64,000 bases of DNA from Immundisolibacter sp. GTDB lineage: Bacteria; Pseudomonadota; Gammaproteobacteria; Immundisolibacterales; Immundisolibacteraceae. Shown piece after piece: positions 41,758 through 49,851 of this stretch (positions are counted from its first letter, which is position 1; each line of letters begins with the position of its first letter). The position numbers were made by a program, and so were the translations under genes. A model generated the notes under the pieces. It saw nothing but the letters and a program-made list of their open reading frames with translations. It did no database searches and was not told where the DNA came from. The DNA lies in assembly GCF_014359565.1 (NCBI RefSeq), contig NZ_JACIZD010000002.1:186001-250000 (forward strand), given 5' to 3'.

Positions 41758-42116
41758 GTGGGAGGCCCGCCCTCGGGCCGAATGCCGGTGGGAAGATTCG
41801 CGGCGAGGGCGCCGCTCCCACAGCTGCTCCACTCCCACAGATCCACGACCGTGGGAGACCCGCCCCCGGGCCGAATGCCTGAGCCCGGACCTGTGGGAGG
41901 CCCGCCCCCGGGCCGAATGCCGGTGGGAAGATTCGCGGCGAGGGCGCCGCTCCCACAGCTGCTCCACTCCCACAGACTCACGACCGTGGGAGGCCCGCCT
42001 CGGGCCGAATGCCTGAGCCCGGACCTGTGGGAGGCCCGCCCCCGGGCCGAATGCCGGTGGGAAGATTCGCGGCGAGGGCGCCGCTCCCACAAACCCACCT
42101 CGGGCCGAATGCCTGA
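41758..42116 (+). repeat. Hairpin repeat array A1 (downstream of metF)
   Basis: Several copies of two modules in one orientation: module a, GTGGGAGGCCCGCC(C)(C/T)CGGGCCGAATGCC, and module b, a 34-bp palindrome GTGGGAAGATTCGCGGCGAG...GCCGCTCCCAC. Module-b copies lie at about 41788-41821, 41923-41956 and 42057-42090. Shorter copies of module a are followed by TGAGCCCGGACCT. Each module can fold as a hairpin. The same modules recur at 42870-43205, 46291-46576 and 49787-49851. No protein is encoded. Confidence 0.85.
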
Positions 42117-42205
42117 GCCCACTGGGCTTGCCGCGTCAGCCAACCGATAACGAGCTTGAACGGGTGCTATTGTCGGCCCTGTCTACAGGACCTGAGGATC
42201 CCGGC

Positions 42206-42475
42206 ATGGGCACCAAGTTCTCCGAGGATGTGATCCCGCTGGCCGACCTGAAGGTCAACCCCGGCCGCGTCGTCAAGCATGCGACAGACGCGCACCGGCC
42301 TGTGCTGCTGACCAGCCGCGGGCGCGGCGTGGCCGTGGTGCAATCGCTGAACGACTACGAGGCGGCCGAGGAGGAACGCGCATTCATGCGGGCGGTCGTT
42401 GCCGGTCTGGCCGACCTCGAGGCGGGCCGAGAGCTGTCGCTTGCACAGGCCAAGGCGCGGCTCGGTCTGAAGTAG
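42206..42475 (+). CDS. YefM/Phd-type antitoxin
   Basis: An 89-residue antitoxin-like protein: an N-terminal DNA-binding Phd/YefM fold (DVIPLADLKVNPGRVVKHA, RPVLLTSRGRGVAVVQSLNDYEAAEE) and a C-terminal charged helix (LEAGRELSLAQAKARLGL) that would wrap the toxin. The ATG giving MGTKFSEDV fits the family; an in-frame start 78 bp upstream is less likely. A ParE-type toxin gene starts 4 bp after its stop. The pair sits between repeat arrays A1 and A2, as a small stand-alone module in otherwise housekeeping sequence. Autorepression by the complex is usual for the family. Confidence 0.85.
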   Translation: MGTKFSEDVIPLADLKVNPGRVVKHATDAHRPVLLTSRGRGVAVVQSLNDYEAAEEERAFMRAVVAGLADLEAGRELSLAQAKARLGLK

Positions 42476-42479
42476 CCGC

Positions 42480-42791
42480 GTGGCCAAGGCCGCCATCCGG
42501 CTCGCCGAATCCGCGCTGGCCGATCTGGAGTCGATACGGGCGTGGTACGCCGGACAGGGCGTGCCCGAGGTGGGCGAGCGCTTGCTTGGCCAAATCGTTG
42601 CGAGCATCGAGGCACTCGCCGATCATCCGGACATGGGGCGTATCGTCCCCGAGTTCGACCAGCCTTTTCTGCGCGAGCTGATCCGGCCACCGTTTCGCAT
42701 CGTCTATCGGCGTGACCCGAAGCACGTGCGTGTCGTTCGGGTCTGGCGCAGTGAGCGCCTGCTCGACGTGCCGGACCAAGACGCGCCCTGA
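42480..42791 (+). CDS. RelE/ParE-type toxin
   Basis: A 103-residue ParE/RelE superfamily protein: LAESALADLESIRAWYAGQG at the N-terminus, ADHPDMGRIVPEF in the middle and the C-terminal RPPFRIVYRRDPKHVRVVRVWRSERLL sheet. This layout is closer to ParE (gyrase inhibitors) than to RelE ribosome-dependent RNases, but the class cannot be decided by eye. GTG start 4 bp after the antitoxin stop, so the pair is translated together. The frame looks complete. It is immediately followed by repeat array A2. Confidence 0.86.
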   Translation: MAKAAIRLAESALADLESIRAWYAGQGVPEVGERLLGQIVASIEALADHPDMGRIVPEFDQPFLRELIRPPFRIVYRRDPKHVRVVRVWRSERLLDVPDQDAP

Positions 42792-42869
42792 CGCGCCGAA
42801 TCTGCGAATCAATACGCCATCAATGACTCACCCGCCGCTCGAAGGCGCGTTTCCCGCAGATCCACGACC

Positions 42870-43205
42870 GTGGGAGGCCCGTCGCCGGGCCGAATGCCTG
42901 CGCCCAGCCTTGTGGGAGGCCCGCCTCGGGCCGAATGTCGGTTGAAAGATTCGCGGCGAGGGCGCCGCTCCCACAAGGGTGACCCCGGCCGAATGCCTGC
43001 GCCCAGCCTTGTGGGAGGCCCGCCTCGGGCCGAATGTCGGGTTGGAAGATTCGCGGCGAGGGCGCCGCTCCCACAAGGGTGCCGCTCCCGCAAGCCCGCC
43101 GCCGGGCCGAATGCCTGCGCCCAGCCTTGTGGGAGGCCCGCCTCGGGCCGAATGTCGGTTGGAAGATTCGCGGCGAGGGCGCCGCTCCCACAAGGGTGCC
43201 GCTCC
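42870..43205 (+). repeat. Hairpin repeat array A2 (downstream of the toxin gene)
   Basis: Three repeats of the module a / module b type seen in A1, here with GAATGTCGG(GT)TGGAAGATTCGCGG and separated by GAATGCCTGCGCCCAGCCTT spacers, period about 105-120 bp. The orientation is the same as in A1. It fills the first half of the 813-bp gap between the toxin gene and pilA; the remainder holds the pilA regulatory region. Confidence 0.85.
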
Positions 43206-43604: not shown

Positions 43605-44048
43605 ATGCAGAAACTTCAACAGGGCTTCACGCTCATCGAACTGATGATCGTGGTGGCCATCATCGGCATCCTGGCCGCGCTGGCCGTGCCGGCGTACCAG
43701 GACTACACCATCCGGTCGAAGGTGGCGGAAGCGGCCTCGCTGGCCTCGGCGGTGCGCACGGCGATTGACGTTGCCTTTAGCGAATCCGGCACGCTGGCCG
43801 GCTTGCCGACGACCCATGCGTCGTTGGGGCTTTCCCTGGCCACGTCTTATAAGGCGAAATACGTCTCGACGGTTGCGGTTGGAACTGGCGGTACGGTCAC
43901 TGTGACGATGACGAACGTGAGTGATTTTCCCACGGCTGTTGCGGGTAAGACGGTTATCTACGAGCCGATTAATCGGGGCGGCAACCTCGAATGGGTGGTC
44001 AGCGCCGGCCCATCAACCGTACCCGATAAATACCTGCCGCGTCGTTAA
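43605..44048 (+). CDS. pilA: Type IV major pilin
   Basis: A 147-residue type IVa pilin. The 7-residue leader MQKLQQG is cut by PilD before Phe, and the mature N-terminus [27 protein letters not shown] (Glu5 present) is the standard assembly helix. The globular part is Thr/Val/Gly-rich ([15 protein letters not shown]). The C-terminus [10 protein letters not shown]...DKYLPRR resembles the usual disulfide-bounded D region, but both cysteines are missing, and the protein contains no Cys. Expression is likely RpoN-dependent (promoter at 43461). A strong terminator follows, then two GT-C proteins and a GT2, probably glycosylating it. GGGAGA lies before the ATG. Confidence 0.93.
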
Positions 44049-44065
44049 GCCGGTCAGGTTGGTTA

Positions 44066-44094
44066 AAAAGGGCGGCTTCGGCCGCCCTTTTTTA
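44066..44094 (+). terminator. Rho-independent terminator after pilA
   Basis: Stem AAAAAGGGCGGC / GCCGCCCTTTTT with a TTCG tetraloop and a T-run, 17 bp after the pilA stop and 20 bp before the next gene. It should keep most pilin transcription from entering the glycosyltransferase genes, allowing high pilin and low enzyme levels. Confidence 0.93.
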
Positions 44095-44114
44095 TCTGCA
44101 ACAGTGGTCGGCGG

Positions 44115-46250
44115 ATGAACCCTCGGCATCGCACGCTCGCCCTGGCCGGGTTGCTGGTTCTGGTCGGGCTGGTCTACTGGCCCGGCCTGTCCGGCCCCTG
44201 GTTGTTCGACGATTTCTCCAATATCCGCGACAACGCCTTCCTGCGCGTGACGGCGCTGGACTGGCAGTCCCTGAGCGGCGCCGCAAGCTCGCTGGCGGCG
44301 GGGCCGCTCGGCCGGCCGATTGCTTATCTCAGTTTCGCGCTCGACCACTATTTGCACGGCGACGCCAGCCCGTACGCCTACAAGCTGACCAACCTCGCCA
44401 TCCACGGCCTGAACACGCTGCTGGTGGCGGCGCTGCTGGGCGCCGTGTTGGGCCGTCTGGCGGCGCGGCAGGTGTTGCCGGTGCGACTGGCCGCGCCCGC
44501 GGCGCTGGTGCTCACGGCGCTGTGGGCGCTGCACCCGATCCAGATTTCCAGCGTGCTGTACGTGGTGCAGCGCATGACCAGTCTTTCGGCCACCTTCGGG
44601 CTGGCGGCGCTGCTGTGCTGGCTGCGCGCGCGCGCGCATATTCTCGTAGGAGCGGGCCATGCCCGCGACCGGGACGCTGGACCTGGCCACGACGCCGCCA
44701 ATCCTGAAACCGTCGCGGTCGCGGCCATGGGCCGCTCCTACACCCCGGACCTGACGCAACCGCCTGTCGGAGCGGGCCATGCCCGCGACCGGGGCGCCGT
44801 GCCCGGGCATGACGATGCGCATTTACCCGCCACTGCGGTCGCGGGCATGGCCCGCCCCTACAGCGTCGGCACGGGACGTGGTCTGCCGGGCTGGCTCGCG
44901 CCACTGGGCTGGCTGCTGGCCGGCGTGGCGTTTGCCCTGCTCGGCGCCTTCACCAAGGAAACCGCCGTCCTGCTGCCGCTGTACGCGCTGCTGCTGAACC
45001 GGGTGCTGTACCCGCAGGCGCCGTACTGGCAACGCTGGCTGCGCGTGCCCGCCGGGCTGCGGCTGGCGCTGCTGGTGGCGGCGCTGACGGTGGTGTTCGG
45101 CCTCGCCGCCTGGTATTGCGCGTCGGGCTACGCCGGCCGGCCCTTCACGCTGACCGAGCGCGTGCTGACGCAGGCGCGGGTGCTGTGGTTCTACATCGGC
45201 CTGGTGGCGCTGCCGCGCATCGATGCATTTGGCCTGCACCACGACGACATTGCGCTGTCCATCGGGCTGCTGGCGCCGTGGACCACGCTGCCGGCCTTGC
45301 TGGGGCTGGCCGGGCTGGCACTGCTCGGCTGGCGGTGCCTGGACCGCCGGCCGCTGGTGGGCCTGGGCCTGCTGTGGTTCCTGGCCGGGCATGTGCTGGA
45401 ATCCACCGTGGTGCCGCTGGAAATCGCCCACGAGCACCGCAACTACCTGCCGAGTCTGGGCCTGCTGCTGGCCGGCGCGGGCGTGCTGCTGCCGCTGGTC
45501 GAACACTGGCGGCGGCGGGCGACGGTGGCGCTGGTGGCGACCCTCGGCGCCCTGCTGGCCGCCACCACGGCGCTGCGGGCCGATCAGTGGGGCGATGAGC
45601 TGGGCATGAGCCGCTACGAGGTTCGCCACCACCCCGGTTCGGCCCAGGCTCGCAACAATCTGGCCGCCGATCTGGTGTGGCGCGGCCACTACGCAGAGGC
45701 CCGTGAACACCTCGAGGCGGCGATCGAACTGGCGCCGTGGGAAGTGGGCTACCCGATGAACCTGGTCGGCGCCTATCGGGTGCAGAAACTGGACCCCCCA
45801 CCGGCGCTGAGCGCGGAAATCCTGGAGCGCATTCGCACCCAGCCGCTGAGCGCCTTCGGCAGCTCGACCCTGAAACGCTACAGCGAGTGCCTGCCGAAGG
45901 CTTGCACGTACATGACCGACGACGTCACCGGCTGGCTGGAGGCCTACCTGGCCGGCGGCCAGCCGACCTTCGATCGCTCCTACGTGCAGTTCCTGCTTGG
46001 CCGCGCCTACCGCGAGCAGGGGCGCATCCAGGACGCGCTGAACGCCTTCCAGCGCGCCCACGACCTGGACCCGCGCTACCTGCACCCGCTGTTCGAGCAG
46101 GCCAACATCCTGCTGAGCCTGCGCCAGTGGGACACCGCGGCGCTGGTGCTGGACAGCATCCGCGCCGCCAACGAAAACGCATATCAGCGCCTGGACCGGC
46201 AGATTGCGGAACTCGATGCAGCGATTGCCAAGGGGCGGGGCGGCAAATGA
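44115..46250 (+). CDS. TMTC-like GT-C membrane glycosyltransferase with TPR domain (paralogue 1)
   Basis: A 711-residue protein: about ten membrane helices, then a soluble TPR-like C-terminus (from about residue 490; AQARNNLAADLVWRGHYAEAREHLEAAI and AYREQGRIQDALNAFQRAHDLDP). The first external loop carries FDDFSNIRDN, then GRPIAYLSFALDHYLHG, matching the acidic GT-C site of TMTC/PMT-type O-mannosyltransferases. HPIQISSVLYVVQRMTSLSATF and STVVPLEIAHEHRNYLPS are shared with the paralogue at 46678. Residues 178-249 are encoded by two tandem 120-bp palindromic repeats and read as two related 40-residue units (VGAGHARDR...). Position after pilA suggests pilin O-glycosylation. Confidence 0.8.
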   Translation: MNPRHRTLALAGLLVLVGLVYWPGLSGPWLFDDFSNIRDNAFLRVTALDWQSLSGAASSLAAGPLGRPIAYLSFALDHYLHGDASPYAYKLTNLAIHGLNTLLVAALLGAVLGRLAARQVLPVRLAAPAALVLTALWALHPIQISSVLYVVQRMTSLSATFGLAALLCWLRARAHILVGAGHARDRDAGPGHDAANPETVAVAAMGRSYTPDLTQPPVGAGHARDRGAVPGHDDAHLPATAVAGMARPYSVGTGRGLPGWLAPLGWLLAGVAFALLGAFTKETAVLLPLYALLLNRVLYPQAPYWQRWLRVPAGLRLALLVAALTVVFGLAAWYCASGYAGRPFTLTERVLTQARVLWFYIGLVALPRIDAFGLHHDDIALSIGLLAPWTTLPALLGLAGLALLGWRCLDRRPLVGLGLLWFLAGHVLESTVVPLEIAHEHRNYLPSLGLLLAGAGVLLPLVEHWRRRATVALVATLGALLAATTALRADQWGDELGMSRYEVRHHPGSAQARNNLAADLVWRGHYAEAREHLEAAIELAPWEVGYPMNLVGAYRVQKLDPPPALSAEILERIRTQPLSAFGSSTLKRYSECLPKACTYMTDDVTGWLEAYLAGGQPTFDRSYVQFLLGRAYREQGRIQDALNAFQRAHDLDPRYLHPLFEQANILLSLRQWDTAALVLDSIRAANENAYQRLDRQIAELDAAIAKGRGGK
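44646..44861. repeat. Two tandem 120-bp palindromic repeats inside a coding region
   Basis: Each unit has GTAGGAGCGGGCCATGCCCG..CGACC and its inverse GGTCGCGG(G/C)CATGG..CCGCTCCTAC about 70 bp apart (44646-44670 with 44717-44741; 44766-44790 with 44837-44861). The second unit starts exactly 120 bp after the first, so both are read in the same frame and add 40 residues each to the membrane protein. The element looks like a mobile extragenic repeat that landed in a coding sequence. Confidence 0.88.
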
Positions 46251-46290
46251 GCTGGCGTGTCCCCGCCACCGGACTGCGTGGCCTCTGGCC

Positions 46291-46576
46291 GTGGGAGGCC
46301 CGCCCCCGGGCCGAATTGGGCCGGTGGGGGTGTGTGGATTCGGTGCCGGCGGCTTCGCGGCGAGGGCGCCGCTCCCACATGCCCGCCCGGGCCGAATGCC
46401 TGAGCCCGGGTTTGTGGGAGGCCCGCCCTCGGGCCGAATGCCTGAGCCCGAGCCGTGGGAGGCCCGCCCCCGGGCCGAATGTCTGAGCCACGACCGTGGG
46501 AGCCCGCCCCCGGGCCGAATGTCGGTGGGAAGATTCGCGGCGAGGGCGCCGCTCCCACAGGGGCGGTGCTCCCACG
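46291..46576 (+). repeat. Hairpin repeat array A3 (between the two GT-C genes)
   Basis: Copies of GTGGGAGGCCCGCCCCCGGGCCGAAT and of the TTCGCGGCGAGGGCGCCGCTCCCAC module in the same orientation as A1/A2, with spacers TGCCTGAGCCCGGGTTTGTG and related. It fills most of the 427-bp gap between the paralogous GT-C genes; the last 100 bp before the second gene contain its AT-richer putative promoter (ATGAAAATCCATATACCCAA). Confidence 0.85.
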
Positions 46577-46677
46577 GGGGCGACGCCCCAGCAAGCGCCG
46601 CTGTCGCGAATGAAAATCCATATACCCAAAATTGATGGCGCTGAGGCCGGACGCCGGCTGGTGACGCAACAGCAACT

Positions 46678-48723
46678 ATGAAACTGCCCCGCAAATTGCA
46701 GGCGGCCGCCCTGCTGGCCACGCTGGCGCTGGTGGTGCTGGCCTATCTGCCGGGCCTGCGCGGGCCGTTCGTGTTCGACGATTACCCGAACATCCTGAAC
46801 AACCCGGCGGTGGCGGTGACCGAATTCACGCCGCAGGCGCTGGGCGCGGCGGCGCTTTCCAACACCAGCGGGCCGCTGGGCCGGCCGCTGGCGGCGCTGT
46901 CGTTCGGTATCGACCATTACCGGGCCGGGGGGTTCTATCCACTGGCCTTCAAGCTGAGCAATCTGGCCATCCACCTGCTGAACGTGCTGCTGGTGTATGC
47001 GCTGGCCGGGCGCCTGGCGCGCCGGCTGGGTGCGGGAGAGATGGCGCCGACGGTAGGGCTGTTCTGCGCCCTGCTGTGGGGCCTGCATCCGCTGCAACTG
47101 ACCAGCGTGCTGTACGTGGTGCAGCGCATGACCAGCCTGGCGGCGACCTTCACGCTGGCGGCGATGCTGTGCTGGCTGCAGGCGCGGGAGCTATGGGCGG
47201 GTTCGGGCGCGGGCGGTGCCGGCGATACGGCCAACGTGGGCCCGGTTGGCCCCACGGGCACAAGCCGACGCGCGTCGACCGGTGAAGGGCAGACGTCGGG
47301 TTACGCTGCGCTAACCCGACCTACGGGCTGGCTGCTGGCCTGCGGGGTGTTGTTCGTGCTCGGGATGCTGAGCAAGGAAAACGCCATCCTGCTGCCGCTG
47401 TATCTGGGGGTGATCGAGCTGTGCCTGTGGCGCTGGCACGACACCGCCGACGCCGACCACGGCCGTCGGGCGGCGACGTGGTTTTTTGCCGTGACGCTGC
47501 TGGCGCCGCTGCTGGTCGGCCTGGCGCTGTTCGTCTGGCAGCCGGGGCTGCTTCTGGATGGCTACGCCAGCCGGCCGTTCACGCTGGGCGAGCGGCTGCT
47601 GACCGAGGCGCGGGTGCTGTGGTTTTACGTGGGCCTGGTGCTGCTGCCGACGCCGGCGCGGCTGGGTCTGTATCACGACGACATTGCGACCTCGACCGGG
47701 CTGCTGGAGCCGTGGACCACGCTGCTGGCCCTCGACGGCTGGCTGGTGGTGCTGATGGCGGCGCTGCTGCTGCGCCGACGGGCCCCGGCCTTCACCTTCG
47801 GCGTGCTGTGGTTCCTGGCCGGGCATGTGCTGGAATCGACCGTGGTGCCGCTGGAGATTGCCCACGAGCACCGCAATTACCTGCCCAGTTTCGGGCTGCT
47901 GTTCGCCGCCGTGTATGGCGTGGCCCGCTTTGCCCGACATACCGGCAACCGGCGTGTCTACGCCGTGCTGGGTCTTGCCACCGCGCTGGCGCTGGGCTTT
48001 GGCACCTTCGGCCGGGCGGCGTCCTGGCACAGCGAGGAGACCATCATCGAGGCGCTGTATCGCCATCATCCGCAGTCGGCTTCGGCGCAGCAGATGATGG
48101 GCGAGCTGATGCTCAAGCGCTATGGCCAGCCGGCGCAGGCGGTGGCGCATTACCGGCGCGCCTACGAACTGGCGCCGTGGGAGACCGGCTATGCGATCCG
48201 GGCCGCCTGGGCGGATCGCGCCGCCGGCGAGCCGGTGCCAACGCTGGCCGAGCAGGACGTGATCGCCAAGGCGCTGCGCGAACGCCCGCTGCCGCCGACC
48301 ACGCTGATCGCGCTGCAGAGCCTGAGCGACTGCGCGCTGGCCGGCGAGGCGCCGTGCCGGGATCTGACGCCGGCGCTGCTGGCCTGGCTGGCGGCGGCCG
48401 CCGAGAACCCGCGCATCAACGCCGTCAGCCTGACGCAGGTGACGATCAACTACGGCCAGATCTGCCTGCAGACCGACCGTTTCGACCAAGGCCTGGCCTG
48501 GGTGCAGTCGGCCTACCGGCGCTCGTCGCAGCCGGTGTTTCGACTGATGGAAGCCAATTTCCGGATGCTGCAGGGCGACCTGGACGGCGCCTCGGCGGTG
48601 CTGGACGAGGTCCGCCGCGTGCCGGAATTGAGCGCCACCGACGCCGGCCACCTGGCCGTGCTGCGGGACGCGATCGCAAACCGCCGCGCCGGCGCGGTGG
48701 CCGGCGATGGTCCGCCACGCTGA
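46678..48723 (+). CDS. TMTC-like GT-C membrane glycosyltransferase with TPR-like C-terminus (paralogue 2)
   Basis: A 681-residue paralogue of the 44115 protein with the same order of motifs: FDDYPNILNNPAVAV near residue 37, GRPLAALSFGIDHYRAGG, ALLWGLHPLQLTSVLYVVQRMTSLAATF near residue 140, GMLSKENAILLPLYLG, and STVVPLEIAHEHRNYLPSFGLLFA near residue 390. The C-terminal third is helical and TPR-like (QPAQAVAHYRRAYELAPWETGYAIR). Residues about 187-216 lie in the same loop as the repeat insert of paralogue 1 and are encoded by two different palindromes. GT-C fold and O-mannosyl-type transfer are inferred from TMTC similarity. Probably acts on pilin or another exported protein. Confidence 0.8.
   Translation: MKLPRKLQAAALLATLALVVLAYLPGLRGPFVFDDYPNILNNPAVAVTEFTPQALGAAALSNTSGPLGRPLAALSFGIDHYRAGGFYPLAFKLSNLAIHLLNVLLVYALAGRLARRLGAGEMAPTVGLFCALLWGLHPLQLTSVLYVVQRMTSLAATFTLAAMLCWLQARELWAGSGAGGAGDTANVGPVGPTGTSRRASTGEGQTSGYAALTRPTGWLLACGVLFVLGMLSKENAILLPLYLGVIELCLWRWHDTADADHGRRAATWFFAVTLLAPLLVGLALFVWQPGLLLDGYASRPFTLGERLLTEARVLWFYVGLVLLPTPARLGLYHDDIATSTGLLEPWTTLLALDGWLVVLMAALLLRRRAPAFTFGVLWFLAGHVLESTVVPLEIAHEHRNYLPSFGLLFAAVYGVARFARHTGNRRVYAVLGLATALALGFGTFGRAASWHSEETIIEALYRHHPQSASAQQMMGELMLKRYGQPAQAVAHYRRAYELAPWETGYAIRAAWADRAAGEPVPTLAEQDVIAKALRERPLPPTTLIALQSLSDCALAGEAPCRDLTPALLAWLAAAAENPRINAVSLTQVTINYGQICLQTDRFDQGLAWVQSAYRRSSQPVFRLMEANFRMLQGDLDGASAVLDEVRRVPELSATDAGHLAVLRDAIANRRAGAVAGDGPPR
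47236..47324. repeat. Two palindromic elements inside the second GT-C gene
   Basis: GTGGGCCCGGTTGGCCCCAC (47236-47255) and GTCGGGTTACGCTGCGCTAACCCGAC followed by CTAC (47295-47324). The second is a widespread-looking gammaproteobacterial extragenic palindrome. Both are read as protein (NVGPVGPTG and TSGYAALTRPT) within the loop that in paralogue 1 carries a different repeat. Confidence 0.8.
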
Positions 48724-48846
48724 GTGTGGCCGGCGCCGGTCAATCCGGCAGGCTGAGGGTGTCCTGAATCACCTGCACCGCGCGCTGCTACGCTGTAGGC
48801 GGCGCCGCCCTTCTTTTCCTCACCGCCACATTGCCCGAGCATCCCC

Positions 48847-49734
48847 ATGACCGACACCCCGCCCGAGCTGTCCATCGTCCTGCCGGCGCGCAACGAGGCA
48901 GCGGCGCTCGAAAAGCTGCTGCCGGTGCTGCGCGGGCAGTTTCCGCAGGCGCAGATCATCGTCGTCAACGACGGCTCGACCGACGACACCAGCGCCCTGT
49001 GCGCCCGCCACGGCGTGCAGGAAGTGCGCCACCGCTACAGCATCGGCAACGGTGGGGCCGTCAAGTCCGGTGCCCGCGCGGCGCGCGGCGAGCTGATCGT
49101 GTTCATGGACGCGGACGGCCAGCACGACCCGGCCGACATCCCGCGCCTGCTGGCGCGGCTGGGCGAGGGCTACGACATGGTGGTCGGCGCCCGCGACGGC
49201 AGCTCGCAGGCCAGCGTCGGCCGCTCGCTGGCCAACCGCCTGTACAACCGCGTGGCCAACTACATGACCGGCCAGCACATCGCCGACCTGACCTCCGGCT
49301 TTCGCGCCGTGCGGGCGGACAAGTTCCGCGAGTTCCTGTTCCTGCTGCCGAACGGCTTTTCCTACCCGACCAGCATCACCATGGCATTTTTCCGCGCCGG
49401 CTATGGGGTTGCCTACGAGCCGATCGTGGCCGCGCGGCGCACCGGCCGCAGCCACATCCGCCCGCTGCACGACGGGGCGCGGTTCCTGCTGATCATCTTC
49501 CGGGTGGCGACGCTGTACTCGCCGCTGAAGATCTTCGCGCCGGTGTCGGGCCTGAGTTTCCTGGCCGGTCTGGCGAACTATCTGTACACCTACGCCAGCA
49601 ATGGGCGCTTCACCAATGCCAGTTCGGTCCTGTTCACCACCGCCGTGGTGGTGTTCCTGATGGGCCTGATCTCGGAGCAGATCACCACCCTGCTGTATGC
49701 GACGGCGGCGCGCGAGCGGCGCGACGAGGACTGA
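48847..49734 (+). CDS. GT2 family glycosyltransferase (polyprenyl-phosphate type)
   Basis: A 295-residue enzyme: GT-A domain with LSIVLPARNEAAALEKLLP, VVNDGSTDDTS near residue 40 and the DADGQHDP metal motif near residue 90, then two C-terminal membrane helices (LSFLAGLANYLYTYA and FTTAVVVFLMGLISEQITTLL). This is the DPM1/GtrB layout, where a sugar nucleotide is used to load polyprenyl phosphate at the inner membrane. It would supply the lipid-linked sugar to the upstream GT-C enzymes. It starts 123 bp after paralogue 2, likely in one transcript, and closes the cassette; repeat array A4 follows. Confidence 0.88.
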   Translation: MTDTPPELSIVLPARNEAAALEKLLPVLRGQFPQAQIIVVNDGSTDDTSALCARHGVQEVRHRYSIGNGGAVKSGARAARGELIVFMDADGQHDPADIPRLLARLGEGYDMVVGARDGSSQASVGRSLANRLYNRVANYMTGQHIADLTSGFRAVRADKFREFLFLLPNGFSYPTSITMAFFRAGYGVAYEPIVAARRTGRSHIRPLHDGARFLLIIFRVATLYSPLKIFAPVSGLSFLAGLANYLYTYASNGRFTNASSVLFTTAVVVFLMGLISEQITTLLYATAARERRDED

Positions 49735-49786: not shown

Positions 49787-49851
49787 GTGGAAGGCCCGCC
49801 CCCGGGCCGAATGTCGGGTTGGAAGATTCGCGGCGAGGGCGCCGCTCCCAC
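49787..49851 (+). repeat. Hairpin repeat A4 (downstream of the GT2 gene)
   Basis: One composite unit of the A1-A3 family: GTGGAAGGCCCGCCCCCGGG, then GAATGTCGGGTTGGAAGATT and the GCGGCG/CGCCGC hairpin ending CTCCCAC. Same orientation as the other arrays. It lies between the convergent GT2 and methyltransferase genes and may act as a transcript end. Confidence 0.82.

Follow-up and report, generated by a model that had tools for sequence, protein, structure and literature searches.

GTAG-tagged REPs of different stem families within the same loop of tandem GT-C/TPR paralogues in Immundisolibacter sp.

Introduction

The tandem paralogues P1 and P2 of Immundisolibacter sp. each carry palindromic sequence inside an open reading frame, and in both proteins the palindrome-bearing loop falls between a conserved RMTSL...CWL(Q/R)AR segment and a K-E-N/T motif. 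This common position had been pointed out in a sequence-only reading of the locus and is confirmed here. It raises the question of what the palindromes are, how they came to lie at one place in two neighbouring genes, and why they have persisted there. The analysis was centred on a window of 64,000 nucleotides (G000:C2:186001-250000) of the home genome, G000, an assembly of 3.09 Mb in 27 contigs; coordinates below are those of the window unless a genome is named. P1 (44115-46250, plus strand) encodes a GT-C and TPR protein of 711 residues, and P2, the second of the two genes (46678-48723, plus strand, an uninterrupted ORF), encodes a protein of 681 residues with a GT-C (TMTC/PMT-like) membrane domain and a TPR domain. 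Two congeneric genomes, G001 and G002, were used for comparison.

Small palindromes within protein genes are known from the Rickettsia palindromic elements (RPE), which resemble the elements described here in lying within coding genes and differ from them in sequence class. In R. conorii, RPE-4 and RPE-6 have been placed within the CGTC or GTAG survey, and no transposase dedicated to the CGTC repeats was found (PMC3733652). The same study treats the GTAG-tagged REPs, of which 24 families have been published, together with the RAYT transposases, and describes units that lie inside ORFs and encode residues (Di Nocera et al. 2013, PMC3733652). The movement of REPs is attributed to RAYTs that act on the element in single-stranded form (PMC3733652). 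The same paper already documents intragenic REPs and REP-coded residues, and for the recB genes of Xanthomonas campestris and X. oryzae it records different REPs at about the same site (PMC3733652). A literature search on intragenic or in-frame REPs returned this as the one directly relevant paper and yielded no report of the P1-P2 locus, and a search for the letters of the P2 element, of a kind that could miss a consensus printed in figures, found nothing related. The REPs of the P1 and P2 loops are a new, well-resolved case of the published phenomenon.

A solitary GTAG-tagged REP in P2

The P2 loop had been described as holding two palindromes. Both strings are present, at 47236-47255 and 47295-47314, and only the second of them belongs to a repeat element. 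This second string, GTCGGGTTACGCTGCGCTAA, is only a part of a solitary GTAG-tagged REP that was located by exact pattern on the minus strand at 47295-47324. Read on that strand, the element is GTAG[GTCGGGTTA]GCGCAGCG[TAACCCGAC], where the brackets enclose perfect arms. The palindrome occupies 47295-47320, and the unpaired tag (CTAC on the plus strand, GTAG on the minus strand) follows at 47321-47324. The whole is 30 nt long, with 9-bp arms of stem GTCGGGTTA and an 8-nt loop, GCGCAGCG; its size and stem are those of the GTAG class, as is the unpaired GTAG at one end, and the element is a GTAG-tagged REP unit. Its first 20 letters occur once in the window at up to three mismatches and were matched in none of 100 shuffles. 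The REP is translated in frame as residues 206-216 of P2, its 30 nt preserve the reading frame of the gene, and its 30 bp are stop-free in two of the six reading frames.

A REP of a resident population would be present in many copies; the P2 REP has one copy in the home genome and was not found at up to three mismatches in the whole genomes of G001 and G002. It is dispersed among the Gammaproteobacteria, where 29 of the 369 genomes searched hold copies at up to two mismatches, with a maximum of 31 copies per genome, and a reversed-pattern control gave no match in any of the 369. The CCTAC end is retained in most of the family copies shown.

The first string, the imperfect palindrome GTGGGCCCGGTTGGCCCCAC (47236-47255, no strand assigned), is ordinary GC-rich sequence that belongs to no repeat family. 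It is single-copy in the home genome and absent from the two congeners. Equal or greater fold stability was found for 222 of the 4808 20-mers sampled from other coding sequence in the window, and when coding sequence was taken in stretches of 100 nt, 211 of 364 included a 20-mer of this kind. With a single copy and a fold stability no better than chance in GC-rich DNA, GTGGGCCCGGTTGGCCCCAC was rejected as a mobile or repeat element.

REPs of another stem family in P1

The loop of P1 holds four copies of another GTAG-tagged REP, GTAGGAGCGGGCCATGCCCGCGAC (REP-B), arranged as two pairs with their tags outward: copy 1 at 44646-44669 (plus strand; G000:C2:230646-230669), copy 2 at 44718-44741 (minus strand, two mismatches), copy 3 at 44766-44789 (plus strand, one mismatch) and copy 4 at 44838-44861 (minus strand). 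REP-B is present in 14 copies in G000 and 35 in G002, with none in G001. The P1 of G002 carries one REP-B pair at the same place, for which copies 3 and 4 are the best counterpart, and is without a 40-residue block there. Since a pair is common to the P1 genes of both genomes, the P1 insertion predates the species split, and the second pair was either gained in G000 or lost in G002. The stems of the P1 and P2 elements differ, and the congener shares the P1 insertion but not that of P2, which supports two independent arrivals, as had been proposed from the sequence. The accompanying description of the repeat families as unrelated holds for the stems and not for the elements as a whole, both being GTAG-tagged REPs of one superfamily.

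A codon-usage test applied to all 14 copies of G000 found none of the 10 outside P1 to be read through by a gene, and the same was true of the 24 copies tested among the 35 of G002, a sample that lies apart from the two P1 copies of that genome. At its threshold, the test flagged only two of the four known P1 copies; neighbouring REPs dilute the flanks, so that the test under-flags and an intragenic REP-B copy could be missed.

A RAYT locus of G002 (G002:C1:1793700-1796500) is surrounded by seven REP-B copies. The RAYT encoded there is probably the mobiliser of the P1 REPs; no REP-B-flanked RAYT was noticed in G000.

The protein and its TM4-TM5 loop

An AlphaFold2 model of P2 (pLDDT 90.3, pTM 0.90) matches the GT-C folds of yeast OST (Z 19.6, rmsd 4.4, 318 aligned), Pmt4 (Z 18.7, rmsd 4.5, 348 aligned) and ArnT (5ezm; Z 17.2, rmsd 4.0, 297 aligned), with Z values taken from a structural aligner's second look at the Foldseek list. 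By itself, Foldseek put TPR chains at the top of its ranking and returned nothing at E <=0.001, and no solved structure was retrieved when the membrane part was used on its own as a sequence query. The GT-C assignment is made because of this second look together with the motifs. D34 and D35 (DD after TM1) and K233 and E234 (KE after TM5) are invariant in all 43 rows of an alignment of P2 with 42 of 79 qualifying homologues (45 of the 79 were listed and three left out, and one truncated P1 copy was swapped for the P1 of the window). The C-terminal TPR domain was recognised by TPR_14 in P2 (E 4.9e-06) and by TPR_2 in P1 (E 3e-13). P1 and P2 are like TMTC, PMT and ArnT in having the GT-C fold, the DD in the first outer loop and the KE after TM5, and like the TMTCs in their C-terminal TPRs, as these proteins are described in a TMTC analysis (PMC7801869); unlike that group, they are bacterial and adjoin a type IV pilin gene. 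The same analysis places the KE motif of TMTCs in the outer loop after TM5, and the motif or its lysine in the outer loop C-terminal to TM5 for TMTCs and ArnT (PMC7801869), so that the loop carrying the REP would, by homology, be the cytoplasmic TM4-TM5 connection, on the side opposite the periplasmic catalytic residues.

The extended TM4-TM5 loop, predicted to be cytoplasmic, and the start of TM5 together cover codons 171-216 (47188-47325, plus strand), as delimited by spacing and pLDDT. In the P2 model, the helices at 147-173 and 208-232 are joined by a segment in which residues 177-191 and 196-199 have pLDDT below 50, and residues 177-199 are the sole long internal stretch of low confidence. 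In the model, the residues coded by the REP complete the loop and form the initial turns of the TM5 helix, which starts at 208.

Among 115 distinct homologues (136 minus 21 that were identical or contained), 111 have loops that are 31-46 residues shorter than that of P2 and tightly clustered in length; an extended loop is confined to the four Immundisolibacter proteins. For all 39 outgroup proteins of the 43-row alignment, the spacing between the invariant residues R170 and K233 is 24-31 residues (median 29); for the four proteins of the genus it is 64 (P2), 47, 65 and 109, and their other anchor spacings all lie within two residues of the outgroup range. Comparison of the sequences thus indicates that loop length is nearly fixed in the family and that the expansion is a feature of the genus, coinciding with the REPs. 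The proposal that the loop tolerates insertions freely fails at the scale of the family, and a loop freely variable across the family was rejected on both measures; among homologues free of the palindromes, it is the length of the loop that is conserved and not its sequence.

The loop stretch of P2 is 136 nt in the home genome and 85 nt, or 51 nt shorter, in G002, and its distal half can hardly be aligned between the two. A search of the G002 loop for a tagged palindrome found one GTAG and no stem of at least 5 bp. In the third congeneric genome, the match to P2 starts after the loop. Outside the loop, P2 is identical to its G002 counterpart at 603 of 635 residues with a dN/dS of 0.20, and P1 has a dN/dS of 0.29 against the congener; by these ratios, both genes are under purifying selection.

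REP families and RAYT transposases

The home genome carries RAYT-type transposase genes (PF01797), two of which are flanked by inverted REPs that have the GTAG tag and the GCGCAGCG loop of the P2 element but the stem GGCGGAATA. RAYTs of G002 are also flanked by REPs with this tag and loop and with a stem other than GTCGGGTTA. When tag and loop were searched for with the stem left free, six sites were found in G000, namely five of the native stem and the P2 REP, and 15 in G002; the reversed control gave none in either genome. REPs with the GTCGGGTTA stem flank RAYTs in five of 33 loci examined, all of them in other genomes, three of the five having been chosen for holding a P2-type REP (the figure among the 30 loci not so chosen is two). 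The RAYTs in question are 54-60% identical to the home RAYT. Tagged palindromes were present in the flanks of 29 of the 33 RAYT loci, compared to five of 29 control stretches situated 600 nt further out, with about 0.55 expected at the 33 loci from shuffling. The REP/RAYT clade was found in 99 of 369 genomes of the class, and the P2 REP belongs to this clade and not to the resident REP population of the home genome.

Discussion

The P2 REP resembles the GTAG-tagged REPs treated in PMC3733652 in its unpaired GTAG, 9-bp stem, short loop, association with flanked RAYTs and encoding of residues within an ORF, and differs from them in being single-copy in its home genome, where the resident RAYT is flanked by REPs of another stem. 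In recB of Xanthomonas, too, homologous proteins carry different REPs at one position (PMC3733652); there two species are involved, whereas here the genes are tandem paralogues of one genome and one of the insertions is absent from the congener. The locus illustrates clearly how small mobile palindromes lengthen an enzyme loop whose length is near-fixed in relatives, here in both sister genes.

It is highly probable that REPs were inserted in frame, independently in P1 and P2, and were tolerated in a disordered cytoplasmic loop. One GTAG-class REP would have landed in the TM4-TM5 loop of P2, a working GT-C/TPR membrane protein, in what was by chance one of the two stop-free frames of the element. 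A REP pair of the other stem family would have entered the P1 loop independently and before the species split, with two pairs now in the home genome. Most insertions within genes would be lost, and those in a disordered loop on the inner side of the membrane, opposite the catalytic side, would survive; the P2 REP would have persisted because the loop is disordered and cytoplasmic and the element lies in an open frame. We infer that the P2 REP was inserted by a RAYT and that the insertions were neutral. Several observations count against this account. Some of the REP-coded residues are modelled as the start of TM5, so that the stretch is not purely disordered filler. The G002 loop exceeds the outgroup median by about 18 residues with no recognisable REP, and since a clean 30-bp insertion does not account for the whole difference between the two P2 loops, an empty site was not seen. 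The P2 REP is also single-copy at home, with no evident source there.

Other readings of the loop were weighed against tolerated insertion. If the loop DNA were a hot spot, with a target sequence or a single-stranded structure preferred by RAYTs, the presence of two REP families in the homologous loop of neighbouring paralogues would be expected, as would the failure to find the 10 other REP-B copies of G000 in coding sequence. However, the P1 and P2 insertion sites revealed no target sequence in common, and their flanks share 77-79% identity, over 150 nt on one side and 78 nt on the other, so that a shared target would be indistinguishable from plain homology. The loop is empty in 111 of the 115 homologues (counted irrespective of the REP content of their genomes), and survival bias yields the same pattern; a hot spot is considered improbable. 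Slightly less probable still is that selection keeps the insertions, either because a longer loop makes a new contact or because an mRNA hairpin slows translation before TM5, which would aid membrane insertion, the two variants being judged jointly. Such selection could account for an expansion that is limited to one genus, yet occurs in both paralogues and both readable species, and for a REP hairpin directly before and within the start of TM5. Nevertheless, the congeners do not share a conserved loop sequence, although the rest of P2 is 95% identical between them, and the hairpin is ordinary for GC-rich DNA, 156 of 4808 sampled coding 30-mers being equally stable. Bulky, repeat-rich insertions in both paralogues might also suggest that P2 is a decaying gene and the insertion junk in a pseudogene, but the 681-codon frame is open, the invariant residues are kept and the dN/dS against the congener is that of a constrained gene outside the loop, on which ground this barely credible reading was rejected.

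Within the preferred account of tolerated insertion, the origin of the P2 REP can be seen in two ways. It is a fair possibility, though somewhat short of an even chance, that the element is the remnant of an otherwise lost foreign REPtron (a RAYT with its REPs) and not the product of a resident RAYT. Apart from the P2 copy, the three congeneric genomes lack the GTCGGGTTA stem, which is common and accompanied by its own RAYT in other Gammaproteobacteria. Where RAYTs and REPs occur in isolation, horizontal transfer has been put forward as their origin (PMC3686654). On the other hand, no remnant RAYT of that type was seen, and the resident relatives examined, a set that excludes two more divergent RAYTs of G002 and a third match in G000, carry REPs with the GGCGGAATA stem. 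A rather unlikely alternative is that a resident Immundisolibacter RAYT, which normally serves the GGCGGAATA-stem REPs, inserted the P2 REP in trans. If so, RAYTs of this clade would read the tag and loop and not the letters of the stem, REPs could cross between RAYT systems, and the copy within P2 would be a natural record of cross-mobilisation. A REP/RAYT pair with matched tag and loop and mismatched stems makes the question of RAYT recognition directly testable.

Genomic context

P1 is preceded by a type IV pilin gene (43605-44048, plus strand; Pilin PF00114 E 4.4e-14, N_methyl E 4.9e-10), and P2 is followed by a family 2 glycosyltransferase gene (48847-49734, plus strand; PF00535 E 8.6e-30). 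A pilin-type motif lies nearby, within the fetched flank, at 54 of 62 named homologue loci. Given these neighbours and the recurrence of the motif, a role for P1 and P2 in pilin glycosylation is plausible. The stretch from 43605 to 49734, with the pilin gene, the two GT-C/TPR paralogues and the glycosyltransferase gene, has the appearance of a possible pilin glycosylation cluster.

The window also holds nine exact copies of TTCGCGGCGAGGGCGCCGCTCCCAC (repeat A), all in one orientation, at 41797-43191, 46354-46558 and 49827-49851; these arrays flank P1 on either side and recur downstream of the glycosyltransferase gene. Amid the repeat A arrays, at 42206-42791, is a gene pair for a Phd/YefM antitoxin (PF02604) and a ParE toxin (PF05016). 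Elsewhere in the home genome, a RAYT at G000:C4:605-823 stands beside sequence that resembles repeat A by eye, and repeat A may be a third REP system.
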